Positions 3,060 through 63,858 of a DNA stretch of 64,000 nt are shown one piece after another. A model generated the notes under the pieces. That model saw only the letters and a program-made list of their open reading frames with translations, did no database searches and had not been told where the DNA came from. Each line of letters begins with the position of its first letter. The first letter of the stretch is position 1. Origin of the DNA: Psococerastis gibbosa (lineage: Eukaryota; Arthropoda; Insecta; Psocodea; Psocidae); the NCBI GenBank assembly GCA_963971405.1, contig OZ020489.1, positions 20,176,290 to 20,240,289 of the forward strand, written 5' to 3'. Position numbers and translations under genes: made by a program.

Positions 3060-3335
3060 ACCTAGTAAAAAAAAAAAAAACTCAAAGTGTCGATTGTCAA
3101 CCAATATTTTATTATTAGCCTACATTACTTTAGTTATCTGCCTGCACAATTATTTTCTTTTAACTTTTAAATTTTTTTCTTAATTCGTAATTTTTTTACT
3201 TTGTATTTGTACTAATTTTTACTTTTTCTTTTAAAGGGGGGCCCAGCACGGGACTTGTCCTTTGGGCCCCCCTTCCATTTGTAATATTGTAAATGTTTTT
3301 TTATTTGATTTAATAAATTTGAATTTGAACATCCA
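3060..3335 (+). repeat. Possible 3' end of a non-LTR element
   Basis: A G/C-rich hairpin (about 3234-3274) is followed by an AT-rich stretch ending 'aataaatttgaatttgaa', a kind of tail seen on arthropod Jockey-like elements. A related antisense stretch with a repeated 'aaatc' tail lies near 10395-10480. No ORF is attached, so the assignment is tentative. Confidence 0.3.
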
Positions 3336-7251: not shown

Positions 7252-7470
7252 CATCTTCTCCTCGAGTTGAGCACGTCTCAAATCGCAGATGGGGGTAACT
7301 GTGCTAGTGGGTTTCCCTCTGTAGATGGCAGTTCTTGCCGAAAGCGCTCAGGGTTATATACTAACACAAGTGAATTTCTTAGACAAAGTTAATTTCTTAA
7401 CGATTATTTGGGTTTTACTAATTCGGATTGTTAAACTCTAAGTTTTTGTTATTTTTTGTTTATTAACTTT
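7252..7470 (+). repeat. Direct repeat, copy 2 of 2
   Basis: This is the partner of 5424-5640, in the same orientation. The copies have drifted by point changes and small indels, so the duplication is not recent. Confidence 0.65.
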
Positions 7471-7480
7471 TTTGATAGAT

Positions 7481-35200: not shown

Positions 35201-35798
35201 TCAAAGTTAGTACGGGATTGTAAACAGCTCCTACTCAGAGTAAGTAAAAATAATAAACTTAAGTTGGAGTGGGTGCCGGGACACTCTGGAGTAGAGGGAA
35301 ATGAACGAGCCGATGCACTAGCAAATATAGGTTCGGACTCAATATTTGTTGGACCAGAGCCAACCTGTGGTATATCCTATGGAAGTGTACGCACTATAGT
35401 TGACAGATGGATCCAGACCAAGAAAATTGAATCCTGGCACAATATGACAGAAAAACGAAGTCTAAAAAGACTTGGAATAAAACCATCAAAAAAAACTTAC
35501 CCAAAATTTGCTATTACTTGGCAGATTAGAAATAAGGAATATTGTTGGTTTGCTCACAGGGCACTGCCACCTAAGGCATCATCTGTATAAACTCAAAGTC
35601 CACACGGGCAGTAGAGAATGTAGATGGTGTGAAATGGAGGACGAAACAGCAGAGCACGTTCTCTTAGAATGTGAAGCTCTGGCCAAAAACCGTTTCAGCA
35701 TACTGGGAATACCAGGGTCAGAAACGAAGACAATTCGTGAAGATCCAGTAGGAAAAACCCGCTCTTTCATCAAGAAAGTGGGTATATTCCAGACATGA
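32193..35798 (+). pseudogene. Non-LTR ORF2: endonuclease, RT, RNase H, zinc knuckle, two frame breaks
   Basis: Frame 32193-33464 is an APE-type endonuclease: FLQINLQHKR at the start, the catalytic Glu in LIQEPW, GCDANSHHTVWGS and the final DH of MADHQYIGF. Frame 33506-35590 holds the reverse transcriptase, with KAPGLDG, FIPKPGK, the FADD catalytic motif (34172-34183) and the SPLLWN block. RNase H follows with FTDGS near 34967, the Glu in VFQAEVCA, SDSQAA and GHSGVEGNERAD. Frame 35508-35798 carries the final knuckle CRWCEMEDETAEHVLLEC. Breaks lie near 33450-33465 and 35540-35550. RNase H plus the EN-RT order points to the LOA/R1/I group; LOA is my best guess. Catalytic residues are intact, so decay is limited to indels. 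Confidence 0.92.
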
Positions 35799-36869
35799 AT
35801 CTCCATGACAAAGCGGCTGCAATAGATCTCAAAGGTCGACGCAACGAACCTTACCTTAAGGAGGCACCGCAAAAAAAAAAAAAAAAAAAAAAAAAAGGGC
35901 CCGGGGGTCTCCCCCGGAGAAAAAAAATTGTAAATAGGCCCAAATTCGTGAGGTTTTACGAATTTTGCAAGCAGTACAGTTGAGATTTTACCGACAAATA
36001 AACCTATCACTGCGGGGGGCCCGGGGGTCTCCCCTGGAGAAAAATTCTGAAAAAATAGGTCTGAAGTATTGGGGTTTTAAGCTTTTTGAGTAACATTTTT
36101 TTTTTTGTGAAAGTACTTGGTCAATATGTTTATTTTTATTTTTATTAAGTCTTTCAGGTGGAATAAGCACACCAAGAATTAATTTCCCTTTCGTTATTGT
36201 GGATACTACGCCTTTAGCCTCCATTTGTCACCAGAAATCCTGGGGAGGACCCCCCTATTTACGCCAATGATTTTCCCTCGCTCTTTCAACGAGTTTTCCT
36301 AATATTGGTGTAACCTCAATACAGTAGAATCCGTTTATTAAGACTCCGTCTATATTGAATATTGACCAACCGCCTATTATGACGAATTACGAAGATAGTT
36401 TGGTTTTCATTAAATATACCTAGGTATATTGTATACTATACGTCTTGTATGACATCCATGTTTGTCAATTCCCTTCGATGTCATTATAACCGGATTCTAC
36501 TGTATATTTAAAACTCCATTCTATCTAGTGTACGCTGCAAATATTTCGGGGGGAAGACCCAAAACACGTGCCTGTGCCTTTACCTCGTGTTGTCGTGTAG
36601 TTGTGCTGCTACAACTAGGCTAGTCAAATCATCATATCATAAGCAAAGCACTGATGTACTCCTGTTTTTAAAATTCCCACCAAGCCATCAGTCGTGGCAT
36701 CAGAATTGAGAATTCATAATATTTGCGTTAAAATTTGAAACCGTTATTTATTCATATTTATCAAATTTATGTTTTTATTATATATTGTAACATTTTCCAT
36801 CTTCGTGAATAAACCCGGATTTTCCGTAAAAAGGGAAATTTCCCTCAAAGTGGAAACGCTGGGCTTAAG

Positions 36870-37233
36870 GGCTTTAATTTGAAGAAAAAAATATGTCCTA
36901 AATTCATATAATTTATTACTTAAAACTATCCTATAATATGATTTAACGTTATTAGTTTTATGGAGTATTATATAACATTACTTCCATTTTTTTTAAACAG
37001 GCGGGAAACGACGCAACGTTTTTTAAAAAACTTGTCGTCACTAGACATTGATATACATGTGTGGCTAGTCGAAGGACGATGCGATTGAATAGGCAGTGTA
37101 GACTTGAATTGGTTTGTATTGCAGTGCTTCGACTCAAGTTAGAGTAATTTAACACACAGTGGTTACAATATGAGCTGTGAGACGAGAACGATACACGCTT
37201 ACAATTAATATTGAATTTGATCCAGCCTGCTTC
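36870..37233. other. Intergenic, nothing recognised
   Basis: AT-rich sequence between the hAT-type element and the inverted-repeat arm at 37234. No motif is seen in the short frames. Confidence 0.4.
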
Positions 37234-37400
37234 ACGAGTCGGTCAGCGTAACACCTGTGTTTGCACCATTCGTTTGCACTGCGCATGCTCATGGACTCCA
37301 CAACCACAGAACATCGTTTAATTATTTCCGTGGTTTAACTCATAATTCCGTGGGAACTAATTCTATTCCGAGAAATTTCCGGGATCAACAATTTTTGAGG
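37234..37400 (+). repeat. Inverted repeat, left arm
   Basis: It is the reverse complement of 38065-38233 with scattered changes ('acgagtcggtcagcgtaaca' at the outer end). The 0.66-kb interior codes for nothing recognisable. Together they may be the ends of a DNA transposon or a foldback element, without a visible target duplication. Confidence 0.65.
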
Positions 37401-38064
37401 TTTTTCTGTGGATTTTTGGGGAAATACCTATGCATACCAATATTTGTATGCCAATTTATGGAATCATGTCAATTTGTGATGGTTGAATCTGGAGCTGATG
37501 GGTATTTTTTTATCGGCTGCAATTTAAAGTTACAATTAAAATTTAAAATAACCAGATAAGGTTAGGAACCAGGGCCATGGACAGATGAGAGTTAAAAAAA
37601 TCATATCATATAAAGGGGACCAACATTTTAAAAAATTCCGGAGTATTCCGTATTCCGTGAATTATTTAAAAATTGTTAGGAATACGGCTGCCCAGCCTGG
37701 TACTCATCGTAGCTTACCATCATTAGTATTTAGTGCATTTAGTTTTTTACTACTGCACCTAATAACCTAAATGATGAAGCAGTGACACACCTAAATTTCA
37801 AATTATGTAAATAGGATTAAAGAAACTTGTGTTTTGATATTACTAAATAATTAACGGAAAAATTAAAATTCCACAATTCAAAATTAATTAGACTTATATT
37901 GTGTTTGCAATTGAAAACTTCACTGCACTTTACAGAACAGTCAGCAGCACAGAACACCAAAATAGCATGCAGTACCGTAGGCCAAAAGTAAATTGCAGTA
38001 TTACAACCCTTCACATTGAATTGTAGCCAACGTACCTACAGTACCCACTGTTCTTAGGTCGGTA

Positions 38065-38233
38065 CTCAAAAATTGTTGATCCCGGAATAGAATTATTTCC
38101 CACGAAATTCTGAGGTAAACCACGGAATGTGACAGCCCTAATATATAATTATACGATGTTCTGTGGTTCGAGTCCATGAGCATGCGCAGTGCAAACCAAT
38201 GGTGCAAACACAGGTGTTACGCTGACCGACTCG
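38065..38233 (-). repeat. Inverted repeat, right arm
   Basis: Partner of 37234-37400. Its outer end coincides exactly with the edge of the LTR at 38234, so the LTR retrotransposon either inserted at this boundary or removed what lay beyond. Confidence 0.65.
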
Positions 38234-38456
38234 TGCCTGCTTCCATATAGAAAAACCAACTCTGTGTCCACAGCTAAAGGAGCTGATGAGACACAGAGGG
38301 TAGATTAAAGATATTATTGAATAAGAGAAATAAATACGTAAAAGGAAGATTGAGGAATATTGAATTATCTGAATGTGAACAGCGCCATCTACCGGGAAAA
38401 AGGTGAAGCTGGAAGCAGACTGGTTATTACACATGTGGGACTAAGTGGTCCCCACA
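38234..38456 (-). repeat. 3' LTR of the CsRn1-like element
   Basis: It starts TGTGGGG and ends GGCA on the minus strand, about 223 bp, directly after a purine-rich tract (complement of 38457-38468). With no partner LTR in the window, the ends are inferred from TG...CA, the purine tract and the edge of the flanking inverted repeat. Confidence 0.7.
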
Positions 38457-38467
38457 TTACCCCCCTC

Positions 38468-41400
38468 CTAAAACTGGAAGTCGGAGAAATGTCGTGGAAC
38501 GTGGACGTGACGACCTGAGCGAGTGGTGCGAGTCGGTGGTGTCGGCACGACGTCAGTGGCAGGAAGTGGTGAGGAGACCTTCTCCTGAGGTTTATCTTGA
38601 GCAGGATGCTGATGCGGGGGGTTGATCGTAGACTGGTGAGACGGTTCGTCTGTACTGGCATTCATGTAGGCCGGCTTGACCCTGTCCATTGACACAGTAA
38701 CCGCACGACCGCGGCTTGAAATCGTAACTGTTTTGTCGGTGCGACTTAACACAGGGAATGGTCCCGCATAAGGACGTTCGAGGGAAGCACGGACGTGGTC
38801 TTGTCTCACGAAAACGTGCGTGGCCTTGGCAAGGTCTTGTGGGATGAATGTTTGATGAGCCCCGTGTCTCTTGACGCGAGTGGGGCGTAGTGAGTCGAAT
38901 TTCCTTCGAAGTGAGATGAGAGTGTCCGCCGGACTCTGATTTGAAGGAGGAGTTGTCAGCATCTGTCCTGGTAGTTTTAATGGTTCACCATAGACCAGAT
39001 CTGCTGGAGAAGCTTGATGATCTTTCTTAAGAGTGGCGCGCATGCCCAGTAAAACTAGCGGAAGGGCTTCCGTCCATTTGTCATTGGCATGACACATAAT
39101 GGAGGCTTTGAGTGAGCGGTGCATACGCTCTACCATGCCGTTGGATGCAGGGTGGTAACTGGTAGTCCGTGCATGGTGAAATCCGCATAATCGGGCCAGG
39201 TCAGCACACAAATGGCTCTCAAACTGTCGGCCGCGATCTGTAGTAATTGTCTCCGGGCACCCAAACCGGCTGATCCAGCAGGAAATGAGGGTTCTGGCGA
39301 CGTTTTCGGCGGTGATGTTCACCATAGGAGCGGCTTCCGGCCATCGCGTGAAACGGTCAACGAGTGTTAGCAAATACGTGTAGCCTTCTGACGGTGGTAA
39401 TGGGCCTACAATGTCGAGGTGTATATGCTGAAACCGTCGGTCAGGCTGAGTAAAGGTTCCAATCGCGGTGAGGGTGTGTCGATGTATCTTGGACAATTGA
39501 CAGTTGACACACAGACGAGCCCAGGCGCGGCAATCCTTACGGATAGAAGGCCATATGTAGCGTTGGGCAACCAGGTTAGCAGACGCTGCTATTCCTGGGT
39601 GATGTAGGCTGTGTAGGTGCTCGAAAAGTTGTCGACGTAATGGTTTGGGCACAAATGGGCTTTGTATGTCTTGACTAGAATCGCACGTAAGGACTGAATC
39701 AGAGCCCGGAATGGGAACATCAACGAGGATGAGGGACGTCTTTCTACTGGACCGAAGCTCTTTGAGTTCTCTGTCGTCTTTCTGAGCAGAAGAAAGTTGC
39801 TCAGGAGATACGGGAGTAGAGATTGCTTCGATTCTTGAGAATGCATCAGCGGCCAAGTTGTCCTGCCCAGCGATGTATTGGATGTCCGTGGTGAATTGAG
39901 AGACGAATTCCATTTGCCGCATTTGGCGAGGTGAGCAACTTGTTTTTGGATTCTGAAAAGCGTGCGTCAACGGTTTGTGATCGGTATATACGACAAAAGC
40001 GCGCGCTTCTAGCAAGTAACGGAAATGACGAATGGCGTCGTGTACCGCAAGCAATTCGCGATCGTAGGCGGACCACGTTCGTTGGTTTTCTTTAAGTTTC
40101 TGCGAGAAGAATGCCAATGGCTGCCAATGATCGTTGATCCGTTGTTGGACTGTAGCTCCGATACTGGTGTCTGATGCATCTGTGACTAGTGCAATCGGAG
40201 CCGTATGATCTGGATGCGCGAGTAGGGTGATGCGTGCCAGACTGTGTTTGCATGAGCTGAAAGCTTCGGTAAGCTTTGTTTTCCATGGTATCGTAGCGTT
40301 CCCTTTTACCTTGTCTCCAGATAACAACGTGTTGAGTGGTGCTTGTTCGTTGGCTGCATTTGGTAGGAACCGGCGGTAGTAGTTAATCATGCCAAGGAAA
40401 CGGCGTAGATCTTTGAATGTCTTTGGAAGAGGGTATTCAGTGAGTGCCTTTACCCTGTCTGGTAGGGCTTGTGTGCCTTCTGCTGACACGAGGTAACCAA
40501 TAAAGCTGATTGACCCAACGCCGAGGGTACACTTGCTAGGATTAATGACCAGGCCATATTCTCGGAATCGTTGGAAGAGTTGACGCAGGTGTGATTCGTG
40601 CTCCTGCTTATCACTCGATGCAACTAGTACGTCGTCGATGTATGAATATGCCCACGGGAGGTCGCGTAGGATGTTATCCATGAAGCGTTGGAAGGTTTGA
40701 GCAGCATTGCGAAGACCGAATGTCATGAATGGGAATTCGAAAAGGCCGAACGGAGTATTTATTGCTGTCTGTGGAATGTCACCATCGGAAACTGGTATCT
40801 GGGTGAATGCTTTGACCAGGTCTATTTTGCTGAATACGGGGTTTCCTCGCAATTCTGCACTGAAATCTGCGATGTGGCGGACTGGGTACGCGTCAGGAAT
40901 TGTTCGAGCATTGAGCCGTCTGTAGTCCCCGCATGGGCGCCATGAATGGTCGCTTTTAGGTACTAGGTGTAATGGTGAGGCCCATGGGCTGTCGGACGGA
41001 CGACATACGCCGGTCTGGATCATGTCGTTGAACTCCTTTTTGGCGATAATAAACTTGTCCGGGGCCAACTGGCGTGGGCGAGCGGAGACGGGAGGTCCGT
41101 CTGTCGTTCTAATGTAGTGGACCGTGGAGTGTTTGACCTGGTCTGTGGGTTGTCTCGGCCGCGTGAGGTCGCTAAACTCCTCAATTATTACTTTTAGACT
41201 GGCCGGGGTACTGTGCGGTATTGTTAAGGTAGAAACGCTAGGTTGCTTGGAGGGGCTTTGACACAGGTTCGCCTTGCGATGCGTTGTCCCGTCGATCAGC
41301 TTTGAGTTCTGGAGATCCACCAGCAAATTAGAGGCTGCGAGAAAGTCTGCACCGATGATGGGTTGCGTGACATCGGCAATGATGAAATTCCAACGGAAAC

Positions 41401-41731
41401 TGCGTCGTAATCCCAGGTCCAGTTGTTGAGCTGTTGTTCCGTACGTATTGATGATTGTGCCATTGGCGGCAGTCAGCTCGAGTTGAGTACGACGGAGCGG
41501 TAGGTTGAGACGGGCACGTGGAAAAACGCAGATGTCGGACCCTGTGTCAATGAGATAACGTATCTTGGTGCAAGGGTCCGTGATAAGAAGGCGATGTGAG
41601 GTTTTAAGCAGGTGTGTAGTGGCGCAGGCAGGCCCTGCCTTTACTGACTGCGATCGTCGTTTTTCGGAAATCTGCATGGCTGCTGGCACTTTCTGGCCTT
41701 CCTCCCATAGGTTTGGTGGTAAAAACACCAA
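38468..41731 (-). CDS. pol: Pol polyprotein: protease, RT, RNase H, integrase (CsRn1-like)
   Basis: An uninterrupted frame of 1087 codons. Domains in order are retropepsin (LIDTGSD, Asp-62), reverse transcriptase with [12 protein letters not shown] and the YIDD catalytic motif (364-367), RNase H (TDAS near 517, YTDHKPL near 582), the integrase zinc finger (HHPG to CVNC, about 710-744) and the integrase core with Asp-773, Asp-832 and Glu-868, exactly the D-D-35-E spacing. The frame has no ATG near its start and lies in the -1 frame relative to gag, overlapping it by 91 nt, so translation probably depends on frameshifting from gag. Every catalytic residue I looked for is present. It would copy and integrate the element, but with one LTR this copy cannot complete the cycle. 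Confidence 0.93.
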
Positions 41732-42408
41732 GTTGGGTCTTGTTTAGGCGCTGGTGGACGGAACTGGCGCTGGAACCGTGGCTGTGTGGCACGTTGTCCG
41801 TATCTGTCGGCGAACTGTGCCTGTAGAGCCGCGACGTTCTCTGTTAACGTCTTCAATAGGTCCACAGGGGCCATTGTGCACTCAAGAATCCGGTCACGTG
41901 TTGCTGAATTGATGGTGGCCATCTTGTCGGCGAGGTTCGCGACGTCATCTAGTGACAGGTGATCATGACCGATGATTGCCAATTGTATAGCGTGCGGGAG
42001 GCGAGACGTCCAAATGGTGCGTAAAACCGAGTCTGATATGGCTTTCTCTGCGAGGGCCCGCAGTCTCCGGAGAAAAGAGCTGGGAGTTTTGTCCCCTAAG
42101 TCTTCCGACATTAGTAGCTGAATGCGACTGCTTGCTGGAAGACTCATTCGTTGGATTAATTGCGTTTTTAGCTCAGTGTATGGGTTTACTGGTACTGGGG
42201 CAGCTAACAAATCTGAGATCTCGCTGAGGGTACTTTGGTCGAGCGCTGAAAGGACGTGGTAATATTTCGTCGTTTCCATTGTGACCCCAGCAAGTGCAAA
42301 CTGAGCCTCCGCTTGAGTGAACCACAGTGCCGGTGACAGGTTGGCCGACTGTGTCCAGAAGGGTGGAAGCTTGACCGAGACTGCCATCGTACTAGCAGGG
42401 CCTGTCAT
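41641..42408 (-). CDS. gag: Gag polyprotein (CsRn1-like)
   Basis: This 255-codon frame starts at an ATG ([18 protein letters not shown]) after an open Ala/Thr-repeat leader. The capsid-like part ([17 protein letters not shown], then [20 protein letters not shown]) matches the Gag of CsRn1-type Ty3/gypsy elements. Near the C-terminus [18 protein letters not shown] gives C-X2-H-X9-C-X3-C, the unusual CHCC box of that group. The last 91 nt overlap pol. A GAAAAAC heptamer (complement of 41659-41665, gag codons CCG AAA AAC) near the end is a weak candidate slip site. Confidence 0.9.
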
Positions 42409-42416
42409 CTTGGTTG

Positions 42417-42510
42417 TAGCCGTGGGTGTCGGTGTTGTGGCTGTAGCAGTTGTAGCTGTAGCGGTCGTAGCTGTAGCGGTTGTAGCTGCAATGGTTGTGG
42501 CTGTGCTGCT
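42417..42510 (+). repeat. Short minisatellite upstream of gag
   Basis: Imperfect 18-bp units ('gtagctgtagcggt.') occur. On the minus strand they are in frame with gag and would encode Ala-Thr repeats, but no ATG precedes them before the hAT-type repeat. Confidence 0.6.
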
Positions 42511-42551
42511 GCGGTGAATGTAGCTGCTCCGGGGTGGTTTCCACCGCCTAT

Positions 42552-43665
42552 CAGCGTTTCCACTTGCGATATATCACATTTCCCTCAGCGGCAACTCAAA
42601 ATTTCCCTCTTTTCCCTCACTCGCCCAAGTCGCTAATATTCCTCTATTTTCTAAATTTCCAAAATTTCTGGTGGGGGGGGGGGGGAAGTCTGCCTAGCAA
42701 ATTATATGACTTTTTATTATTTAAATTTTATTGTTTTTAATGAGTATGAAATACGTTATATATACATTAAACTATTCAAGTTCAGAAAAACAAAAAAAGC
42801 AAACTGTCCTGGAACGCCCAGCGACCTAGTCGTCTCATTCTACTATGTATATGAATGACAGCCAAATTGCTGAACCTGTTTTGAATGGTGGTACCAGACG
42901 CAAATTTTGGTATTTTTGTAGGATGCGGGAGAATTTTGCCTAAAATTGGAACCTATACATTCATCTTTCAAGTAGGGTATAAGTGACCAATACACATGTT
43001 AAACGCTGGATGCAGGGGGGCCCGGGGGTCTCCCCCGGAGAAAAAATGGATAATTAATAGGCCCAAATTAGTGAGGTTTTAGGCATATTATACACTGGAA
43101 GAAAGGGGGTCCGGGGTTCTCCTCGGAGAAAAAATTGATAAATGGTCCCAAATCAGTGAGGTTTTTGCGCATGTTATAACCTGGAGAAAGGGGGGCCCGG
43201 GGAAAAAATTTATAAATAGGCCCAAATTCGTGAGGTTTTACGCATTTTGCAAGCAGTACAGTTGAGATTAAATTACCGACAAATAAACCTATCACTGCGG
43301 GGGGCCGGGGGTCACCCCGGAGAAAAATTCAGAAAAAATAGGTCTGAAGTATTGGGGTTTTAAGCTTTTTGAGTAACATTTTTTTTTGTGAAAGTACTTG
43401 GTCAATATGTTTATTTTTATTTTTGTTAAGTCTTTCAGGTGAAATAAGCACACCAAGAATTAATTTCCCCTTCGTTATTGTAGATACTACGCCTTTAGCC
43501 TCCATTTTTCACCAGAAATCCTGGGGAGGACCCCCCTATTTACGCCAATGATTTTCCATTGGCGTAAATTCCCAAAATTTCTGGAGGGGGGGGACTTTAG
43601 AACCCTAAGAATTTGATCCCACGGAGAAAAAAAATCGATAAATGAGCCCAAATTAGTGAGGTTTT
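42552..43665 (+). mobile_element. Second copy of the 29.7-kb hAT-type element, right end lost at gap
   Basis: It starts CAGCGTTTCCACTT and follows the same internal order as 29748-36861, including the poly-G, the TA-poor middle, the 90-bp G/C blocks and the block 'aagcacaccaagaattaattt'. It has no retrotransposon: at about 43192-43201 the site is continuous. Beyond a small palindrome at about 43540-43570 the order is rearranged and the sequence enters the N gap, so the right end is not seen. Confidence 0.8.
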
Positions 43666-47993: not shown

Positions 47994-49848
47994 CATACGC
48001 CACCACAGCACCAGAGTGCCCACCAGCCGTCACAAGCAACAGGCTGGCCACAGCCACCGCCGCCACATATGCCGCAGCAACCGCCGACCTGGCAACACCA
48101 GCAACCCTTTCATGGCAGCTCTTACGACCCGTTCCGGCATTCGACAGACATGAGTGGCTACAGGAAGCCCCTGGTTAAATTTCTGGGCGTCTGTCAGTCC
48201 CGAGACATCTGTATCTCTGGGAGGAAGAATTTGTACGAGACTTTGAGAGGCAAGCAAATCAGGATTTCCCATGGATTTAATCTATCCCGGTTTGCTAGAT
48301 CGATCTTCTCTCTTGGACGACAAAAACATCGTTTGAAGTGCACTTACCGGATCTGCAAAGTTGGAATTCCAGGAGGCGTTTACCGTCGTCCGGGGTGACG
48401 CAGCGCTACTACAGGAAGATGACACCGGGGCAGAGATCAGTAGAATTCTTGGCCAATATTCGGAATTGATGAGGTCAACCTTGTGCGCAACAACCTGTTG
48501 CCTCTCTACAGAGAAAAGTTGATTTTCGCGGACGTCTACATCTTCCGGCAACTAGAGGCAGCCTGTGCAGAAATAGAAGCAACAATTAATATTTGGCAGA
48601 CAAAAATACCGTATGTAAGTATGGCCGATGCGTACACCAACAAGGCAGCATCGGTGAATCTTTGTTACAATTGCGATTCGCTACACATTATTTTAAAGAT
48701 TGTGGGGCCGCCCGATGACATGGACCCTCCACATCCCGAATATGCGGATTATATTAAGGATTACTTTTCCAGCGCCAGAGCAGATCGAGCTGGCATGTGT
48801 AGGGCTGGCTGAGTAACCTTTCTTACGTGTCAAAATAGGGGAAACGTTTTTTCCGACGCTGGTAGACACGGGCGCTAATTCTTCCCTAATAGCAGCCCCT
48901 TACTGGGACATTTTGGTTACGAGTGGCTTCCGGGTGACGCCTACGTCTGGTCGAGTAAAGTTAGCCGACTCTTCATTGCACGCAGAGCACGTGGGAACCG
49001 CCTGGCAGCGAGTTTAACTTGGTTCCCGTATGGTCAACCATCGGTTCAACCTTCTTAAGGGCCTGAGGCAACAGTGCCTTATAGGCATTGATTTGTTGAT
49101 GAAATTAAAGGCCTCCATCGACGTGGCAGGTTTATTATTGGTACTAAAACCCTAACAGTTAAACAGTTGAACAAGACGGCCGCGAGAAATTAAATTAAAA
49201 CAATGTCAACGCGGGGTCCAGGCAATGAAGAGAAGCCAGCAAATACTATGCCGTTTCTCCGATCGCGAGTTGCCTTAACCAAAATGAAACGTGTGGATGC
49301 GACTACAAATAATAAAAAAAATTTATCAAGGAAGCCACCAGGAAGTCTCGGCCCATCTCCTCTTCAAACCATTGTGGAAAAAATAAAAAAAGACATCCAA
49401 GAAAGGAAAAGCAAGGCAACGTTTCCAGAAGTCTGCCTCCTCCTTCAAAGAATTTAAGGGTTGTACAGTCGCGGCGCAACTCTAGTGGTTCAATGTCTGT
49501 TTGACACTCCAAGGCTGTGATAGGGGTGGATTTGGCAGCCTCACTGATAGCTTTCAGCGCATTATTTCGGGCAATGTCCAGTCTTCGCATGTTAGCGACA
49601 CTTGCTGTACAGAAGGCTTCGCAGCAGTATTAAATAAGGGGTCTTATGTAAGATTTGTAGTTGGTGACTAGGACATCTTGCGTTGCACCCCAAGTGGTAC
49701 CTGCTAATCTTTTCAACATGCATACTCTCTTACAGGCCTTTGTTGCTGCGCCATCGATATTTTTTTGTCCAAACGCATGCCGACTGCCCAACAGCCGCCT
49801 CGGGCGACAGTTACACAGCAGCCGCAGCAACAGTTTTCACAAGCTTGG
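47994..49848 (+). repeat. Array unit U1 (type A, 1855 bp)
   Basis: The anchor for all units is 'catacgccaccacagcacc'. Order: Pro/Gln-rich gag, gag core frame 48483-48812 (NNLLPLYREKLIFADVY), remnant of the first zinc knuckle (CYNCD), retropepsin 48832-49155 (LVDTGANSSLIA, later IGIDLL), an 84-codon frame of unknown nature (49203-49457), then the antisense RT piece. The next gag start lacks 36 bp, which accounts for the 1855-bp length. Confidence 0.85.
49442..49780 (-). pseudogene. Antisense non-LTR RT piece in U1
   Basis: 339 bp. The minus strand encodes LKRLAGTTWGATQDVLV and, after a TAA, RRLDIARNNALKAIS and TPITALECQTDIEPLELRR, the thumb region of a Jockey-like RT. The TAA is common to all five array copies. 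Confidence 0.8.
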
Positions 49849-50872: not shown

Positions 50873-51261
50873 GTTGGTTCCCGTATGATCAACCATCGGT
50901 TCAACCTTCTTAAGGGTCTGAGGCAACCGTGCCTTATAGGCATTGATTTGTTGTTGAAATTAAAGGCCTCTATCGACGTTACAGGTTCATTATTGGTACT
51001 TAAACCCTTCCAGAAACAGTTGAACAAGACGGACGCGAGAGACTAAATTAAAACAATGTCGACGCGGGGTCAAGGTAATGAAGAAAAGCCAGCAAAAACT
51101 ATTCCGTTTCTCCGATCGAGAGCTGCCTTAACCGAGACGAAACGTGTGGATTCGAATACAAATAATATAAAAGTTGTATCAAGGAAGCCACCAGGAAGTC
51201 ACGGCCCATCTCCTCATCAAACCATTGTGGAAAAATAAAAAAAGACATCCAAGAAAGAAGG

Positions 51262-52640
51262 GAAATGTGATACGACGGACTCCATATCCCCCAAAGAATC
51301 CATGACACAGGAGGAAGTGCACAAACCGTGTGAAGTTGAGCATAAAGCCACAAGGGAAAGAGAAAACCTTTTCTAGACGACTTAAGAGAAAAATGCAGAA
51401 ATGCAGAAGCAAGCAAGCAAAGACGATTGGCTTAAACAACCAGACCCGAGATGGAGCCACACAAACCTCACAAATAATTGCACCAAGCAAGATATTTGTC
51501 GAAGCTGGAATCCAAAGAGACCACCGGAACAATGAGGCAGCCAAGCAAACTGTGCCATTCAGCAGCAGCCGCCACAGAGCACCCCAAACTGAGCCACGCA
51601 ACAGCAGTAGCAACCACGGCACACAAACTAAGCCACCCAGACAGCTGGAGACGACCAGAGAAGGAGTCAAGTCCGTGATACATGCTGTAACGAATGCGTA
51701 CGGTATAAAGGGGGCCGTTCTCCAAAAAGACTACAGGACTGTCGCATCAATCCTAATTAACGGCTCCGAAATAAAATTTGATAGGGTCATAGTAGACAAG
51801 GGATAGCTACTCCATGCCGGATCTTTATGAGTTTCTGCCATCAAAGCTGAGTGCAAAGAAATACTGGTACTCGGGCACTCCAACCCAATTCCTAACCTGG
51901 ACAGGGAAAAAGTGTGCCCCTCTGGTTTAAAATTCCATAGGCCTGATATATATGGGGCAAAATTACAGAGGAAATATCGACCACACGTCGCTGCCCCGCT
52001 GACCTATGCTTTGCATTAAAAGATTTATACAAAAACATTCACACTACAATCAAAGTAGTGACGTCACTTGAACAAATCCCGATTAGCCAAAACACGCCAT
52101 TGCCAAACTATCCAAACAATATATACCTTACTTTCACTAAAATTGAAAAAAGGAGAGTTAATCAAGCAGGGAGTACAGGAATATGGAAATCAATGTTATA
52201 CTGACCATGAACTGCAGGGTGGTTGCACAGACAACATAGCGATTGTAAGGCTAAATCGTGAGGAAAATCACATCTACCACAGCGTTCCACATGCTATTGC
52301 TGCCATTAGTAAGCACAAACAATCTTTGAAATACATAACAGCTGCTGCCGATGACTCTCTTTCAAGATTTATAGTGGCAACAACAAACAAAAACATCGAT
52401 GAATGGAATCAGCTGTGGCTAATTACCTGTACGTCAAAACAAATTGTGACAGCTGAGGCCACTGCGTCAGAGAAAACAGACTCTGCACTTGACACCTGCT
52501 CAAGCCGTGGACCTAAACACTATAGTACTATACAGGCAATTAATACTCCCGACATGAGAACGCAGGATGGATGGTTAGACGATTGTGACCTCCAACAGTA
52601 TATAGAGGGAATAGAACGAAAACTAAACGACCAAACGAAG
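51262..52640 (+). pseudogene. Endogenous viral element: SF1 helicase remnant, copy B1 (motif I deleted)
   Basis: This is a copy of the helicase-like sequence described at 59990-61995. Visible are motif Ia (TREGVKSV, near 51653), motif II VIVDKG (51786-51803), motif III VLGHSNPIP (51867-51893), motif IV around 51980-52000, motif V HELQGGCTDNIAIVRL (52206-52253) and motif VI PHAIAAISKHKQSLKY (52287-52334). The segment carrying motif I and about 600 bp of flank is missing at about 51650, relative to the other copy. Motifs lie in different frames separated by stops; only 52068-52799 stays open. It is a dead gene fragment. Origin from an alphavirus-like positive-strand RNA virus is inferred from the motif set. 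Confidence 0.85.
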
Positions 52641-53270
52641 CATACGCCACCACAGCACCAGAGTGCCCACCAGCCGTCAAACAACAGGCTGGCCACAGCC
52701 ACCGCCGACCTGCCAACACCAGCAACCCTTTTATGGCCGCACTTACGACCCGTTCCGGCATTCGAAAGACATGAGTGGCTACAGGAAGACCCTGGTTAAA
52801 TTTCTGGGCGTCTGTCGTTCCCGAGACATTTGTTTCTCTGGGAGCAAGAATTTGTACGAGACTTTGAGAGGCAAGCAAATCAGGACTTCCGATGGATTTA
52901 ATCTATCCTGGCTTGCTAGATCGATCTTCTCTCTCGGACGGCAAAAACATGGTTTGAAGTGCACTTACCGAATCTGCAGAGTTGGAATTCCAGGAGGCGT
53001 TCACTGTCGTCCGGGGTGACGCAGCGCTACTACAGGAAGATGAAACCGGGGCAGAGATCAGTAGAATTCTTGGCCAATATTCGGAATTGATGAGGTCAAC
53101 CTTGTGCGCAACAACCTGTTGCCTCTCTACAGAGAAAAGTTGATTTTCGCGGACGTTTACAGCTTCCGGCAACTAGAGGCAGCCTGTGTAGAAATAGAAG
53201 CAAATATTAATATTGGGCAGACAAAAATACCGTATGTATGTATGGCCGATGCGTACACCAACTTAAAGGC

Positions 53271-53460: not shown

Positions 53461-54182
53461 ATGGACCCTCCACATCCCGAATATGCGGATTATATTAAGG
53501 ATTACTTTTCCAGCGCCAGAGCAGATCGAGCTGGCATGTGTAGGGCTGGCTGAGTGACCTTTCTTACGTGTCAAAATAGGGGAAACGTTTTTTCCGACGC
53601 TGGTAGACACGGGCGCTAATTCTTCCCTAATAGCAGCCCCTTACTGGGACATTTTGGTTACGAGTGGCTTCCGGGTGACGCCTACGTCTGGTCGAGTAAA
53701 GTTAGCCGACTCTTCATTGCACGCAGAGCTCGTGGGAACCGCCTGGCAGCGAGTTTAACTTGGTTCCCGTATGGTCAACCATCGGTTCAACCTTCTTAAG
53801 GGCCTGAGGCAACAGTGCCTTATAGGCATTGATTTGTTGATGAAATTAAAGGCCTCCATCGACGTGGCAGGTTTATTATTGGTACTAAAACCCTAACAGT
53901 TAAACAGTTGAACAAGACGGCCGCGAGAAACTAAATTAAAACAATGTCAACGCGGGGTCCAGGCAATGAAGAGAAGCCAGCAAATACTATGCCGTTTCTC
54001 CGATCGCGAGTTGCCTTAACCAAAATGAAACGTGTGGATCCGACTACAAATAATAAAAAAGTTGTATCAAGGAAGCCACCAGGAAGTCACGGCCCATCTC
54101 CTCTTCAAACCATTGTGGAAAAAATAAAAAAAGACATCCAAGAAAGGAAAAGCAAGGCATCGTTTCCAGAAGTCTTCCTCCT

Positions 54183-54625: not shown

Positions 54626-56516
54626 CATACGCCACCACAGCACCAGAGTGCCCACCAGCCATCACAAGCAACAGGCTGGCAACAGCCACCGCCGCCACAT
54701 ATGCCGCAGCAACCGCCGACCTGGCAACACCAGCAACCCTTTCATGGCAGCTCTTACGACCCGTTCCGGCATTCGACAGACATGAGTGGCTACAGGAAGC
54801 CCCTGGTTAAATTTCTGGGCGTCTGTCAGTCCCGAGACATCTGTATCTCTGGGAGGAAGAATTTGTACGAGACTTTGAGAGGCAAGCAAATCAGGACTTC
54901 CCATGGATTTAATCTATCCCGGTTTGCTAGATCGATCTTCTCTCTCGGACGACAAAAACATGGTTTGAAGTGCACTTACCGGATCTGCAAAGTTGGAATT
55001 CCAGGAGGCGTTTACCGTCGTCCGGGGTGACGCAGCGCTACAACAGGAAGATGACACCGGGGCAGAGATCAGTAGAATTCTTGGCCAATATTCGGAATTG
55101 ATGAGGTCAACCTTGTGCGCAACAACCTGTTGCCTCTCTACAGAGAAAAGTTGATTTTCGCGGAAGTTTACAGCTTCCGGCAACTAGAGGCAGCCTGTGT
55201 AGAAATAGAAGCAACAATTAATATTGGGCAGACAAAAATACCGTATGTAAGTATGGCCGATGCGTACACCAACAAGGCAGCAGCGGTGAATCTTTGTTAC
55301 AATTGCGATTCGCTACACATTATTTTAAAGATTGTGGGGCCGCCCGATGACATGGACGCTCCACATCCCGAATTTGCGGATAATATTAAGGATTACTTTT
55401 CCGGCGCCAGAGCAGATCGAGCTGGCATGTGTAGGGCTGGCTGAGTGACCTTTCTTACGTGTCAAAATAGGGGAAACGTTTTTTCCGACGCTGGTAGACA
55501 CGGGCGCTAATTCTTCCCTAATAGCAGCCCCTTACTGGGACATTTTGGTTACGAGTGGCTTCCGGGTGACGCCTACGTCTGGTCGAGTAAAGTTAGCCGA
55601 CTCTTCATTGCACGCAGAGCTCGTGGGAACCGCCTGGCAGCGAGTTTAACTTGGTTCCCGTATGGTCAACCATCGGTTCAACCTTCTTAAGGTTCTGAGG
55701 CAACAGTGCCTTATAGGCATTGATTTGTTGATGAAATTAAAGGCCTCCATCGACGTGGCAGGTTTATTATTGGTACTAAAACCCTAACAGTTAAACAGTT
55801 GAACAAGACGGCCGCGAGAAACTAAATTAAAACAATGTCAACGCGGGGTCCAGGCAATGAAGAGAAGCCAGCAAATACTATGCCGTTTCTCCGATCGCGA
55901 GTTGCCTTAACCAAAATGAAACGTGTGGATCCGACTACAAATAATAAAAAAGTTGTATCAAGGAAGCCACCAGGAAGTCACGGCCCATCTCCTCTTCAAA
56001 CCATTGTGGAAAAAATAAAAAAAAACATCCAAGAAAGGAAAAGCAAGGCAACGTTTCCAGAAGTCTTCCTCCTCCTTCAAAGAATTTAAGGGTTGTACAG
56101 TCGCGGCGCAACTCTAGTGGTTCAATGTCTGTTTGACACTCCAAGGCTGTGATAGGGGTCGATTTGGCAGCCCCACTGATAGCTTTCAGCGCATTATTTC
56201 GGGCAATGTCCAGTTTTCGCATGTTAGCGACACTTGCTGTACAGAAGGCTTCGCAGCAGTATTAAATAAGGGGTCTTATGTATGATTTGTAGTTGGTGAC
56301 TAGGACATCTTGCGTTGCACCCCAAGTGGTACCTGCTAATCTTTTCAACATGCATACTCTCTTACAGGCCTTTGTTGCTGCGCCATCGATATTTTTTTGT
56401 CCAAACGCATGCCGATGCCACCGCAGTGGAGTGCTCCACTGCAGCAGCCGACTGCCCAACAGCCGCCTCGGGCTACAGTTACACTGCAGCCGCAGCAACA
56501 GTTTCCACAAGCTTGG
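54626..56516 (+). repeat. Array unit U4 (type A, 1891 bp)
   Basis: Standard unit. Gag core frame 55115-55444, protease about 55464-55785 (A type), 84-codon frame 55835-56089, antisense RT at the end. It differs from U5 by only a handful of bases by eye. Confidence 0.88.
56074..56412 (-). pseudogene. Antisense non-LTR RT piece in U4
   Basis: 339 bp, same borders and stop as the other copies. Confidence 0.8.
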
Positions 56517-58407
56517 CATACGCCACCACAGCACCAGAGTGCCCACCAGCCGTCACAAGCAACAGGCTGGCAACAGCCACCGCCGCCACATATGCCGCAG
56601 CAACCGCCGACCTGGCAACACCAGCAACCCTTTCATGGCAGCTCTTACGACCCGTTCCGGCATTCGACAGACATGAGTGGCTACAGGAAGCCCCTGGTTA
56701 AATTTCTGGGCGTCTGTCAGTCCCGAGACATCTGTATCTCTGGGAGGAAGAATTTGTACGAGACTTTGAGAGGCAAGCAAATCAGGACTTCCCATGGATT
56801 TAATCTATCCCGGTTTGCTAGATCGATCTTCTCTCTCGGACGACAAAAACATGGTTTGAAGTGCACTTACCGGATCTGCAAAGTTGGAATTCCAGGAGGC
56901 GTTTACCGTCGTCCGGGGTGACGCAGCGCTACAACAGGAAGATGACACCGGGGCAGAGATCAGTAGAATTCTTGGCCAATATTCGGAATTGATGAGGTCA
57001 ACCTTGTGCGCAACAACCTGTTGCCTCTCTACAGAGAAAAGTTGATTTTCGCGGACGTTTACAGCTTCCGGCAACTAGAGGCAGCCTGTGTAGAAATAGA
57101 AGCAACAATTAATATTGGGCAGACAAAAATACCGTATGTAAGTATGGCCGATGCGTACACCAACAAGGCAGCAGCGGTGAATCTTTGTTACAATTGCGAT
57201 TCGCTACACATTATTTTAAAGATTGTGGGGCCGCCCGATGACATGGACGCCCCACATCCCGAATTTGCGGATAATATTAAGGATTACTTTTCCGGCGCCA
57301 GAGCAGATCGAGCTGGCATGTGTAGGGCTGGCTGAGTGACCTTTCTTACGTGTCAAAATAGGGGAAACGTTTTTTCCGACGCTGGTAGACACGGGCGCTA
57401 ATTCTTCCCTAATAGCAGCCCCTTACTGGGACATTTTGGTTACGAGTGGCTTCCGGGTGACGCCTACGTCTGGTCGAGTAAAGTTAGCCGACTCTTCATT
57501 GCACGCAGAGCTCGTGGGAACCGCCTGGCAGCGAGTTTAACTTGGTTCCCGTATGGTCAACCATCGGTTCAACCTTCTTAAGGGCCTGAGGCAACAGTGC
57601 CTTATAGGCATTGATTTGTTGATGAAATTAAAGGCCTCCATCGACGTGGCAGGCTTATTATTGGTACTAAAACCCTAACAGTTAAACAGTTGAACAAGAC
57701 GGCCGCGAGAAACTAAATTAAAACAATGTCAACGCGGGGTCCAGGCAATGAAGAGAAGCCAGCAAATACTATGCCGTTTCTCCGATCGCGAGTTGCCTTA
57801 ACCAAAATGAAACGTGTGGATCCGACTACAAATAATAAAAAAGTTGTATCAAGGAAGCCACCAGGAAGTCACGGCCCATCTCCTCTTCAAACCATTGTGG
57901 AAAAAATAAAAAAAGACATCCAAGAAAGGAAAAGCAAGGCAACGTTTCCAGAAGTCTTCCTCCTCCTTCAAAGAATTTAAGGGTTGTACAGTCGCGGCGC
58001 AACTCTAGTGGTTCAATGTCTGTTTGACACTCCAAGGCTGTGATAGGGGTGGATTTGGCAGCCCCACTGATAGCTTTCAGCGCATTATTTCGGGCAATGT
58101 CCAGTTTTCGCATGTTAGCGACACTTGCTGTACAGAAGGCTTCGCAGCAGTATTAAATAAGGGGTCTTATGTAAGATTTGTAGTTGGTGACTAGGACATC
58201 TTGCGTTGCACCCCAAGTGGTACCTGCTAATCTTTTCAACATGCATACTCTCTTACAGGCCGTTGTTGCTGCGCCATCGATATTTTTTTGTCCAAACGCA
58301 TGCCGATGCCACCGCAGTGGAGTGCTCCACTGCAGCAGCCGACTGCCCAACAGCCGCCTCGGGCGACAGTTACACTGCAGCCGCAGCAACAGTTTCCACA
58401 AGCTTGG
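56517..58407 (+). repeat. Array unit U5 (type A, 1891 bp)
   Basis: Same length as U4 to the base. Gag core frame 57006-57335, protease about 57355-57676, 84-codon frame 57726-57980. Confidence 0.88.
57965..58303 (-). pseudogene. Antisense non-LTR RT piece in U5
   Basis: 339 bp, same borders and stop as the other copies. Confidence 0.8.
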
Positions 58408-59704: not shown

Positions 59705-59880
59705 AGTTAGTTTAGCCAACGCCCGTCTGTGGCAGTTGGGCCATTAGACGCCGAGCCTCCCAGTAGCGCCTCGTTGTGTCGGCAGGAAGAAGTTTTAATC
59801 TGGAACAGGTCTCCAAGTGAGTGGCCACCATCCTTCCGGACGCGCACAGTGGACAGATGTCGGAGTCAGCAATTCCGACT
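59705..59880 (-). mobile_element. 3' tip of a non-LTR retrotransposon inserted in U6
   Basis: It is flanked by a perfect 14-bp target duplication CCGAGACGAAACGT (59691-59704 and 59881-59894) and absent from U2 at the same place. On the minus strand it encodes a terminal knuckle CPLCASGRMVATHLETC and a stop. The long duplication and 3'-only content are typical of 5'-truncated non-LTR insertion. Confidence 0.85.
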
Positions 59881-59989
59881 CCGAGACGAAACGTGTGGAT
59901 TCGAATACAAATAATATAAAAGTTGTATCAAGGAAGCCATCAGGAAGTCACGGCCCATCTCCTCATCAAACCATTGTGGAAAAATAAAA

Positions 59990-61995
59990 AAAGACATCCA
60001 AGAAAGAAGGGAAATGTGATACGACGGACTCCATATCCCCCAAAGAATCCATGACACAGGAGGAAGTGCACAAACCGTGTGAAGTTGAGCATTAAGCCAC
60101 AAAGGAAAGAGAAAACCTTTTCTAGACGACTTAAGAGAAAAATGCAGAAATGCAGAAGCAAGCAAGCAAAGACGATTGGCTTAAACAACCAGACCCGAGA
60201 TGGAGCCACACAAACCTCACAAATAATTGCACCAAGCAAGATATTTGTCGAAGCTGGAATCCAAAGAGACCACCGGAACAATGAGGCAGCCAAGCAAACT
60301 GTGCCATTCAGCAGCAGCCGCCACAGACCACCCCAAACTGAGCCACGCAACAGCAGTAGCAACCACGGCACACAAACTAAGCCACCCGGACAGCTGGAGA
60401 CGGTGACGATACAAACTCACCAAATGGCAAGTAAGCATGAAACCCTTCTTTGCTGGAAAGAGGCCACTATCCCTAAAGCGTTCCCTAATAAATATCTTAT
60501 TAGCTTATCACCAGTAAAAAAGCCACACTTTAAACCTGTATCAAGTGATGACTGGAATAAGTACCTAGTAGCCACGAACAATTCCATGTAGGTAAGAAAA
60601 CCCTGGTGACCTCTACTTACTGCTTGCACGAAAAGGTCCATTTGACAATTTCATTTGCCAATAAAGGTAGAGAGGGCAAATATGACATCTCACGTGGGCT
60701 AGCACGCTGCTTTCCCCACACAAAAAAAGCGGCTGCAGCAGGATGACTTCAACAGACTACCAACCTTAAAACTAAACCAAGTGTCATGTAAGGCTATCTT
60801 AGGCCACAACAGGAAGCCAATAGTAATTGCTGACTTGACAAAGGACAAAATAGGCACATAATCGACGATATTAAAACCACTTTCAGAAGAAATAGCAAGC
60901 CTGGGCAAAGTCATAGAAATCGGGCTAGATGACTGTTCGGAAATGGATTCGGGTTGTGGAAAAACGACTTAGGTTATAAAAAACCATATCCCTGGGAAGG
61001 ATTTAAAATTTTAACAGCGACCAGAGAAGGAGTCAAGTCCGTGATACATGCTGTAACGAATGCGTACGGTATAAAGGGGGCCGTTCTCCAAAAAGACTAC
61101 AGGACTGTCGCATCAATCCTAATTAACGGCTCCGAAATAAAATATGATAGGGTCATAGTAGACAAGGGATGCCGGATCTTTATGAGTTTCTGCCATCAAA
61201 GCTGAGTGCAAAGAAATACTGGTACTCGGGCACTCCAACCCAATTCCTAACCTGAACAGGGAAAAAGTGTGCCCCTCTGGTTCAAAATTCCATAGGCCTG
61301 ATATATATGGGGCAAAATTACAGAGAAACTATCGACCACACATCGCTGCCCCGCTGACCTATGCTTTGCATTAAAAGATTTATACAAAAACATTCACACT
61401 ACAATCAAAGTAGTGACGTCACTTGAACAAATCCCGATTAGCCAAAACACGCCATTGCCAAACTATCCAAACAATATATACCTTACTTTCACTAAAATTG
61501 AAAAAAGGAGAGTTAATCAAGCAGGGAGTACAGGAATATGGAAATCAATGTTATACTGACCATGAACTGCAGGGTGGTTGCACAGACAACATAGCGATTG
61601 TAAGGCTAAATCGTGAGGAAAATCACATCTACCACAGCGTTCCACATGCTATTGCTGCCATTAGTAAGCACAAACAATCTTTGAAATACATAACAGCTGC
61701 TGCCGATGACTCTCTTTCAAGATTTATAGTGGCAACAACAAACAAAAACATCGATGAATGGAATCAGCTGTGGCTAATTACCTGTACGTCAAAACAAATT
61801 GTGACAGCTGAGGCCACTGCGTCAGAGAAAACAGACTCTGCACTTGACACCTGCTCAAGCCGTGGACCTAAACACTATAGTACTATACAGGCAATTAATA
61901 CTCCCGACATGAGAACGCAGGATGGATGGTTAGACGATTGTGACCTCCAACAGTATATAGAGGGAATAGAACGAAAACTAAACGACCAAACGAAG
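59990..61995 (+). pseudogene. Endogenous viral element: alphavirus-like SF1 helicase remnant, copy B2
   Basis: Motifs of a viral superfamily 1 RNA helicase appear in order: I DSGCGKTT (60946-60969), Ia ILTATREG (from about 61008), II VIVDKG (61152-61169), III VLGHSNPIP (61222-61248), IV THRCPAD (61338-61358), V HELQGGCTDNIAIVRL (61561-61608), VI PHAIAAISKHKQSLKY (61642-61689). Spacing and text fit helicases of the alphavirus-like group (virga/nege-like relatives are known as fossils in arthropod genomes). Such helicases unwind viral RNA during replication. This copy cannot work: motif II has Asp-Lys for Asp-Glu, motif III has His and Pro at its Asp and Gln positions, and a TAG follows motif I directly. 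The motifs lie in three frames. 60079-60945 is open in parts but unassigned. No polymerase follows; the sequence joins gag at 61996. Confidence 0.87.
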
Positions 61996-62220
61996 CATAC
62001 GCCACCACAGCACCAGAGTGCCCACCAGCCGTCAAACAACAGGCTGGCCACAGCCACCGCCGACCTGCCAACACCAGCAACCCTTTTATGGCCGCTCTTA
62101 CGACCCGTTCCGGCATTCGAAAGACATGAGTGGCTACAGGAAGACCCTGGTTCAATTTCTGGGCGTCTGTCGTTCCCGAGACATGTTTCTCTGGGAGGAA
62201 GAATTTGTACGAGACTTTGA
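61423..62220 (+). pseudogene. Chimeric open frame: helicase C-terminal half joined to gag
   Basis: This 265-codon frame covers motifs V and VI, an acidic link ending DLQQYIEGIERKLNDQTK, and then the Pro/Gln-rich gag text (HTPPQHQSAHQPS) without a break at 61995/61996. The equivalent frame in U2-U3 is 52068-52799 (243 codons). The ATG is not supported: the frame opens at a TTG. An open frame may simply reflect recent duplication rather than selection. Confidence 0.6.
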
Positions 62221-63858
62221 GAGGCAAGCAAATCAGGACTTCCGATGGATTTAATCTATCCTGGCTTGCTAAATCGATCTTCTCTCTCGGACGGCAAAAA
62301 CATGGTTTGAAGTGCACTTACCGGATCGGCAGAGTTGGAATTCCAGGAGGCGTTCACTGTCGTCCGGGGTGACGCAGCGCTACTACAGGAAGATGAAACC
62401 GGGGCAGAGATCAGTAGAATTCTTGGCCAATATTCGGAATTGATGAGGTCAACCTTGTGCGCAACAACCTGTTGCCTCTCTACAGAGAAAAGTTGATTTT
62501 CGCGGACGTTTACAGCTTCCGGCAACTAGAGGCAGCCTGTGTAGAAATAGAAGCAACAATTAATATTGGGCAGACAAAAATACCGTATGTATGTATGGCC
62601 GATGCGTACACCAACAAGGCAGCAGCGGTGAATCTTTGTTACAATTGCGATTAGCTACACATTATTTTAAAGATTGTGGGGCCGCCCGATGACATGGACC
62701 CTCCACATCCCGAATATGCGGATTATATTAAGGATTACTTTTCCAGCGCCAGAGCAGATCGAGCTGGCATGTGTAGGGCTGGCTGAGTGACCTTTCTTAC
62801 GTGTCAAAATAGGGGAAACGTTTTTTCCGACGCTGGTAGACACGGGCGCTAATTCTTCCCTAATAGCAGCCCCTTACTGGGACATTTTGGTTACGAGTGG
62901 CTTCCGGGTGACGCCTACGTCTGGTCGAGTAAAGTTAGCTGACTCTTCATTGCACGCAGAGCTCGTGGGAACCGCCTGGCAGCGAGTTTAACTTGGTTCC
63001 CGTATGGTCAACCATCGGTTCAACCTTCTTAAGGGCCTGAGGCAACAGTGCCTTATAGGCATTGATTTGTTGATGAAATTAAAGGCCTCCATCGACGTGG
63101 CAGGCTTATTATTGGTACTAAAACCCTAACAGTTAAACAGTTGAACAAGACGGCCGCGAGAAACTAAATTAAAACAATGTCAACGCGGGGTCCAGGCAAT
63201 GAAGAGAAGCCAGCAAATACTATGCCGTTTCTCCGATCGCGAGTTGCCTTAACCAAAATGAAACGTGTGGATCCGACTACAAATAATAAAAAAAATTTAT
63301 CAAGGAAGCCACCAGGAAGTCTCGGCCCATCTCCTCTTCAAACCATTGTGGAAAAAATAAAAAAAGATATGCAAGAAAGGAAAAGCAAGGCAACGTTTCC
63401 AGAAGTCTTCCTCCCCCTTCAAAGAATTTAAGGGTTGTACAGTCGCGGCGCAACTCTAGTGGTTCAATGGCTGTTTGACACTCCAAGGCTGTGATAGGGG
63501 TCGATTTGGCAGCCCCACTGATAGCTTTCAGCGCATTATTTCGGGCAATGTCCAGTTTTCGCATGTTAGCGACACTTGCTGTACAGAAGGCTTCGCAGCA
63601 GTATTAAATAAGGGGTCTTATGTATGATTTGTAGTTGGTGACTAGGACATCTTGCGTTGCACCCCAAGTGGTACCTGCTAATCTTTTCAACATGCATACT
63701 CTCTTACAGGCCTTTGTTGCTGCGCCATCGATATTTTTTGGTCCAAACGCATGCCGATGCCACCGCAGTGGAGTGCTCCACTGCAGCAGCCGACTGCCCA
63801 ACAGCCGCCTCGGGCGACAGTTACACAGCAGCCGCAGCAACAGTTTCCACAAGCTTGG
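61996..63858 (+). repeat. Array unit U7 (type A, 1863 bp)
   Basis: The gag start is the short B-type form, as in U3. Gag core frame 62457-62654 is cut by a TAG where other units read the serine codon after CYNCD. The second knuckle is deleted. Protease (about 62815-63130) is A type, and the 84-codon frame is 63177-63431. Confidence 0.85.
63416..63754 (-). pseudogene. Antisense non-LTR RT piece in U7
   Basis: 339 bp, same borders and stop as the other array copies. Confidence 0.8.

Follow-up and report, generated by a model that had tools for sequence, protein, structure and literature searches.

The stretch of DNA that we analysed (the window) comprises 64,000 nucleotides of Psococerastis gibbosa, C14:20176290-20240289, from an assembly of 409 Mb in 68 contigs, in which the contig carrying the window is 46.5 Mb long. 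From about 47.9 kb to its end, the window is occupied by a run of repeats with a unit length of 1891 bp, as judged by the spacing of open reading frames, and with long self-matches that are 94–99% identical. The gag-like and retropepsin (RVP) part of this unit is seen at 56340..57540 (RVP E 2e-4) and is present in at least 40 copies on C14; a Pfam scan of its two gag-like frames gave no match. Two units are longer and carry a helicase (51129-52641 and 59884-61996), so that the helicase recurs along an array of gag-protease units, as the original prediction had stated. Each of the short units holds 130 bp from the same LINE ORF as the helicase units. These pieces, which correspond to the first 130 bp of that ORF, lie at 49276..49405 (90.0% identity), 54017..54146 (92.3%), 55908..56037 (91.5%), 57799..57928 (92.3%) and 63250..63379 (89.2%). 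All array features given here are on the plus strand.

Elsewhere in the window, an LTR retrotransposon spans 35913-43557, with likely LTRs at 35913-36276 and 43196-43557 (94.8%) and, on the minus strand, a pol frame of 1091 aa and a gag-like frame of 310 aa. A LINE of a different kind from the helicase LINEs lies at 31050-35590, where long open frames encode an ORF1-like product, then an endonuclease (425 aa) and an RT-RNase H (716 aa). A 161-aa open frame at 27309-27794 resembles host coding sequence and had no match in a Pfam scan.

The second of the longer units contains, at 60950-61996, a broken SF1 helicase of the alphavirus supergroup (virga-like). Compared by tblastn with a 1130-aa LINE ORF from another locus, L013, the window matched at 59880-60945 (E 3e-122), 60952-61523 (E 3e-56) and 61171-61995 (E 1e-109). 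At the DNA level, the N-terminal part of this ORF (L013 2708-3811; residues about 7-375 of 1130) corresponds to 59884..60946 with 88.3% identity, and the helicase part (L013 4418-5470; residues 579-929), whose frame is broken, corresponds to 60950..61996 with 92.4% identity. The two meet at 60946..60950, the junction of a 607-bp internal deletion (L013 3811 to 4418). The unit, 59884-61996, is thus larger than the extent originally proposed, 60946..61760. A 267-aa open frame at 61417..62220 runs from helicase motifs V and VI into gag-like, PQ-rich sequence, with the LINE part stopping at 61996, and it passes the Pfam Viral_helicase1 cut-off (22.1 bits vs 21).

The other helicase unit has a different deletion and consists of an N-terminal part at 51129..51653 (L013 2702-3255; 84.0% DNA identity) and a helicase part at 51652..52641 (L013 4484-5470; 93.6%). 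Overall, the window pieces are 84–94% identical in DNA to the stop-free frame of L013, and both long units end at L013 5470. A genome-wide search with PF01443 returned 51 matches, including this other window copy (C14:20228000-20228629). The copy at 60950-61996 (C14:20237241-20238287) was absent from them and was picked up solely by searching the genome with the L013 protein, in which search it showed 13 stops. By sequence similarity, the helicase remnants are genuine and far above chance level.

The motif numbers used here follow the helicase literature. In the copy at 60950-61996 the motifs are ordered correctly and spread across several frames. Seven motifs split over frames had been predicted; their order and frames were borne out, but a complete motif I was not, because the 607-bp deletion ends within motif I and leaves its right half alone (GCGKTT). 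Moreover, motif II reads VDKG (VDEG in L013), motif III LGHSNPIP (LGDSNQIP in L013) and motif VI ISKH (ISRH in L013). With motif I cut and motifs II, III and VI changed, this copy in its present state could therefore hardly be functional.

Eight of the 51 PF01443 matches are stop-free over profile positions 2-228, and the frames that hold them are 477-1130 aa long. The stop-free 1130-aa frame of L013 (on C21, 2686-6078) comprises the N-terminal part, the helicase and a Ulp1/SENP8-like protease; Pfam places Viral_helicase1 at residues 573-828 (5e-32) and Peptidase_C48 at 960-1069 (1.5e-12). The frame next to it contains an endonuclease and RVT_1 (Pfam; endonuclease score slightly below the cut-off). 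The C48 part is nearest to SENP8 (E 6e-14) and retains the aligned His, Asp, Gln and Cys, presumably the catalytic residues. A C48 domain with an apparently complete catalytic set, joined to a helicase, suggests action on ubiquitin-like modifiers. At a further locus, L052 on C12, an old copy with many stops has helicase, C48 and endonuclease-RT ordered as in L013, and the two share a (TATTG)n 3' end. Given the DNA match to L013 and the equal domain order in L052, the window pieces are therefore LINE remnants. None of the copies seen is a wholly intact element of the L013 type, because the RT downstream of the L013 ORF (7906-8858) is split across frames; the L013 copy may thus be young, yet non-autonomous.

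The LINE character of such elements was assessed at several loci. Pfam detected Exo_endo_phos and RVT_1 in L009, L012 and L013, and no direct terminal repeats were found in self-comparisons of L009, L011, L012 and L013. L009 and L010 are 99.9% identical across 6031 bp with unmatched flanks, and L011 is a 5'-truncated copy at 99.6%; it is this pattern that, read from sequence, is a LINE signature and indicates recent movement. All three have ATTC repeats at their 3' end. No clear target-site duplication was seen in the three copies looked at.

Helicase-bearing LINEs do not have a single fixed layout: four were found in this one genome. In L009/L010 and L013, a full-length SF1 helicase domain (profile positions 2-228 of 228, stop-free) lies upstream of ORF2. 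In the layout of L010, an ORF1 of 421 aa overlaps the helicase frame (685 aa), which is followed by a 924-aa frame with the RT, the endonuclease being read in the L009 frame. L012 has an ORF1 of 334 aa, its helicase in two frames and its endonuclease-RT in two frames; L054 has an L012-like helicase and a different ORF2, in several frames; and in L013 helicase and C48 are followed by endonuclease-RT, with the RT split. The RT ORFs scanned had no Pfam match to RNase H. Between L009 and L012, codon differences in the helicase part number 124, 84 and 248 of 415 at positions 1, 2 and 3, which, together with the invariant motif residues, show at the level of sequence that the helicase protein has been kept under selection in the LINEs.

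We then turn to the array beyond the window. A genome search with the 1130-aa ORF gave 84 rows from the 41 of 492 candidates that were scored, so that all counts, taken from this one assembly, are minimum values. C14 20.228-20.838 Mb (0.61 Mb) contains at least 38 helicase pieces, all ending at residue 929. Among these 38, 20 share a pattern of 2 TGA, 2 TAG and 1 TAA stops and 15, including the copy at 60950-61996, share another of 3 TGA, 4 TAG and 6 TAA; 3 are variants. Since many copies share identical stops, decay of the fragment preceded its amplification. The gag-RVP unit was located on C14 in all 40 places scored, of 234 candidates; dispersed copies may nonetheless exist. Decayed endonuclease-RT pieces of the L013-type LINE amount to at least 7 main rows on C14 and at least 5 on C3 (73 of 3613 candidates scored). 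Those on C3 form a second array at 25.58-25.88 Mb, likewise mid-contig, whose pieces resemble those of C14; exchange between the two arrays is possible, as judged from this resemblance.

How the gag-retropepsin sequence came to stand beside the LINE ORF admits two readings. It could be the native 5' part of an L013-type LINE (gag, retropepsin, viral helicase, C48, endonuclease, RT) that was later arrayed. Of the seven window units looked at, six do have the RVP tail ahead of the LINE ORF, as have L015 and L018, which bear endonuclease-RT; the order in L015 is gag part, LINE 3160-3557, RVP tail, LINE 2702-2932 and LINE 6435-8831. Moreover, the RVP frame closes with a 24-bp sequence (57678..57701) that also stands before the intact LINE ORF of L013 (2678-2701), on another chromosome (91.7%, E 9e-5). 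However, the overlap is just 24 bp and may be LINE leader read in frame by chance, and among the matches listed L013 is the sole non-array copy extending this far 5'. In addition, inspection by eye shows a zinc-knuckle pattern in ORF1 of L009 and L012 (for L009, Pfam gives E 0.037), and neither has a Pfam match to RVP. In the unit carrying the copy at 60950-61996, other sequence (about 59705-59880) separates the RVP tail from the LINE ORF. We regard a native gag-retropepsin as rather unlikely.

The viral affinity of the helicase was examined by sequence and by fold. In phmmer searches against solved structures, the replicase helicase of tomato mosaic virus (ToMV) came first (E 2e-31 for L009, E 3e-33 for L013), and L009 scored 117 bits with Viral_helicase1 vs 27 bits with AAA_19. 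An AlphaFold model of a relative, P0007 (mean pLDDT 80.1, pTM 0.62), retrieved ToMV (3vkw) first in a Foldseek search of the PDB (E 7e-28), then alphavirus-type helicases, and UPF1 at 2e-12. Compared with viral proteins, the same model had named virga-like replicases among its best matches. By profile and predicted fold it is thus an alphavirus-supergroup SF1 helicase, and the original call of a non-cellular, alphavirus-like type was right.

Of 22 hits, 20 are full-length relatives (633-667 aa, 39–69% identity), and helicase motif residues are among the invariant columns. Profiles built from them found the helicase in all four virus proteins tried. In P0085, a 2692-aa replicase, they matched both the helicase core (E 1e-87) and the domain directly before it (E 6e-24); this domain was weak in P0005 (2e-6) and absent from P0087 and P0028 in the same search. 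The far N-terminal domain of the LINE proteins is shared with TRAS proteins (hhalign 95.3%, score 57 vs at most 18.4 in 20 shuffled decoys). Its match to P0085 is doubtful, scoring 14.7 with the Jockey-like profile and 23.1 with TRAS, where 20 column-shuffled decoys from another comparison reach 18.4; Foldseek alignments of the P0007 model to virga-like replicases are long, but 38 of the 50 listed have an rmsd of at least 9. An alignment-based scan of viral contigs gave 25 pattern matches and no relative.

Independent helicase origins in TRAS and Jockey-like LINEs have been proposed by Morozov et al. 2017 (PMC5563155). In our helicase tree of 46 rows, a single branch sets the rows from this genome and the Jockey-like rows apart from the others (94/91, slightly below the mark for a firm branch), and P0085 groups with TRAS at weak support (83/57). 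AU tests did not reject a single LINE clade (p 0.189), nor Jockey-like plus P0085 (p 0.432). With a Jockey-like helicase profile, P0085 scores 285 bits vs 214-230 for TRAS rows, which speaks for independent captures; the AU tests neither confirm nor reject them.

Taken together, the feature is very probably a dead fragment of a non-LTR retrotransposon of the L013 family, with an SF1 helicase of virga-like RNA virus type upstream of its endonuclease-RT, that decayed beside gag-retropepsin sequence on C14 and was then amplified. The original prediction had instead seen a virus fossil as such, and a virga/nege-like genome reverse transcribed and inserted directly into the array would account for the virga-like type of the helicase. 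However, the 92.4% DNA match to a LINE ORF rules out a virus as immediate source, no methyltransferase or RdRp was matched by Pfam in the selected LINE and neighbouring ORFs scanned, and at L013 and L052, two loci elsewhere in the genome, the helicase ORF lies ahead of endonuclease-RT. We therefore consider direct viral insertion highly improbable: the locus is a decayed piece of a LINE with a resident viral helicase, stop-free forms of which occur in multiple copies in the genome, and a viral source of the window helicase is, by these sequence comparisons, a distant one only. A match to a known transposon protein family was to refute the original prediction, and in this sense it does, LINEs with such helicases having been published in 2015 and 2017 (PMC4686597, PMC5563155). 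The view that the sequence must once have been reverse transcribed is one that we share.

A misjoin of helicase and gag-protease DNA during assembly deserves mention, given that long near-identical arrays are difficult to assemble, but it too has very little to recommend it: the left flank is alike in 6 of the 7 window units, the right junction is identical in 2 of 2, at least 38 pieces have an equal right end, and the contig is 46.5 Mb long. As for a cellular SF1 helicase (UPF1/Pif1-like) or a Helitron helicase, the SF1 core is common to all of these and there is a weak AAA_19 match, but the Viral_helicase1 score of L009 and the preference of the fold for ToMV over UPF1, both given above, exclude it, and we assign it a negligible probability.

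On the LINE-fragment reading, L013-family members elsewhere in the genome would carry a helicase originally taken from a virga-like RNA virus. A fragment of one would have landed beside gag-retropepsin sequence on C14 and gathered stops and deletions, after which both would have been amplified together. Unequal exchange is the probable route, and the product would be a composite array, some 0.6 Mb in extent, of long helicase-bearing units and short 1891-bp units. The array copies would be dead DNA. Live copies would move by target-primed reverse transcription, with one RNA translated into ORF1 protein, helicase protein and endonuclease-RT. By analogy with SF1 helicases, we take the most likely role of the helicase to be the unwinding or stripping, while the element is copied, of RNA or RNA-DNA duplex belonging to the LINE itself, and perhaps the removal of proteins. 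The next option would be suppression of RNA silencing, for which a plant assay of a TRAS helicase gave weak evidence (PMC4686597, PMC5563155).

LINEs carrying viral SF1 helicases have been published (Lazareva 2015, PMC4686597; Morozov 2017, PMC5563155; PMC6338049). In layout, the elements described here are like the Jockey-like SF1H-ORF1 LINEs (PMC5563155, available text), with a viral SF1 helicase ORF near or overlapping the endonuclease-RT ORF, multiple copies and, among the ORFs that we scanned, none matching RNase H. They differ in that the L013 helicase ORF adds a C48 protease and in that ORF2 appears to be swapped; the terms protease, Ulp1, tandem and satellite are absent from that paper's available text, as is ORF2 swapping. 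Like the TRAS/R1 SF1H LINEs (Lazareva et al. 2015, PMC4686597, available text), they have a virga-like helicase and a homologous pre-helicase domain (hhalign 95.3%). In TRAS/R1, however, the helicase follows RT and RNase H at the ORF2 C-terminus, whereas here it is upstream of the endonuclease, and the two sets of helicases are on different branches of the helicase tree. With virga-like replicases (ToMV 3vkw; P0085) they share the core of the helicase and the domain immediately preceding it, but the LINE ORFs scanned have an endonuclease-RT instead of a methyltransferase or RdRp. A C48/Ulp1 protease inside a LINE is also known from NeSL/Utopia elements (PMC4640811, available text), but those combine an N-terminal Ulp1 with a restriction-like endonuclease, whereas the present elements have an APE-like endonuclease and a protease C-terminal to the helicase; the word helicase does not occur in the available text of that paper.

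In the literature searched, which lay mostly outside subscription journals, we found neither a helicase-C48 protease fusion nor swapping of a helicase module, and no amplification of a helicase LINE into a composite satellite-like array was found in the literature searched. LINEs with an RNA-virus helicase are thus already known; the C48 fusion, the ORF2 exchange and the composite array may be new. A presumed virus fossil thus becomes a LINE remnant, which calls for care wherever endogenous RNA viruses are surveyed by means of helicase hits.

The four layouts also bear on exchange between LINE backbones. Within a LINE, conservation is usually highest in the RT. L010 and L012 are 47% identical in ORF1, 62% (C-part) and 50% (N-part) in the helicase, and about 30% in the RT, and the endonuclease-RT frame of L012 is 20% identical to the endonuclease frame of L009. 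In a 10-row RT tree, 2.78 changes per column separate L012/L053 from the rest, a value to be read with caution given the long branches. L012 and L054 are 92.4% identical in DNA over 1776 bp, up to L012 5274, 23 bp into ORF2; past this breakpoint the DNA comparison reported no match, and identity between the RT pieces is 30–36%. Of 40 rows obtained with an L012 query, 14, counting the place of the query itself, span the L012 junction (query position 575) by 44 bp or more each way, 11 of the 14 at 96–100% identity; three of the 40 end exactly at 575 and one at 559. The L054 junction (query position 561) is crossed by 4 of 46 rows, again including the query's own place, with at least 129 bp on either side; the other three are on C21 (95%), C2 (94%) and C15 (87%). 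One more piece, of 75 bp, crosses 561, and 11 rows end exactly there. It should be noted that L012-type ORF2 copies at C2:2255142, C21:1503400 and C15:1737758 all start at query 525, 50 bp before the helicase-ORF2 breakpoint, perhaps a sign of a third 5' partner.

Near-identical helicase DNA on deeply different ORF2s therefore argues, in a way that can be tested, for an exchange of modules among families of LINEs. We tentatively propose, as a possible though doubtful scenario, that a slice of a virga-like replicase (pre-helicase domain and helicase) is a travelling module, captured once and then swapped among deeply different LINE backbones: the R1/TRAS ORF2 C-terminus in moths and at least three endonuclease-RT backbones here, in one case with an additional deneddylase-like protease and perhaps, upstream, gag-retropepsin. 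If this is true, the 5' modules of LINEs would be exchangeable, much like accessory genes between viruses.
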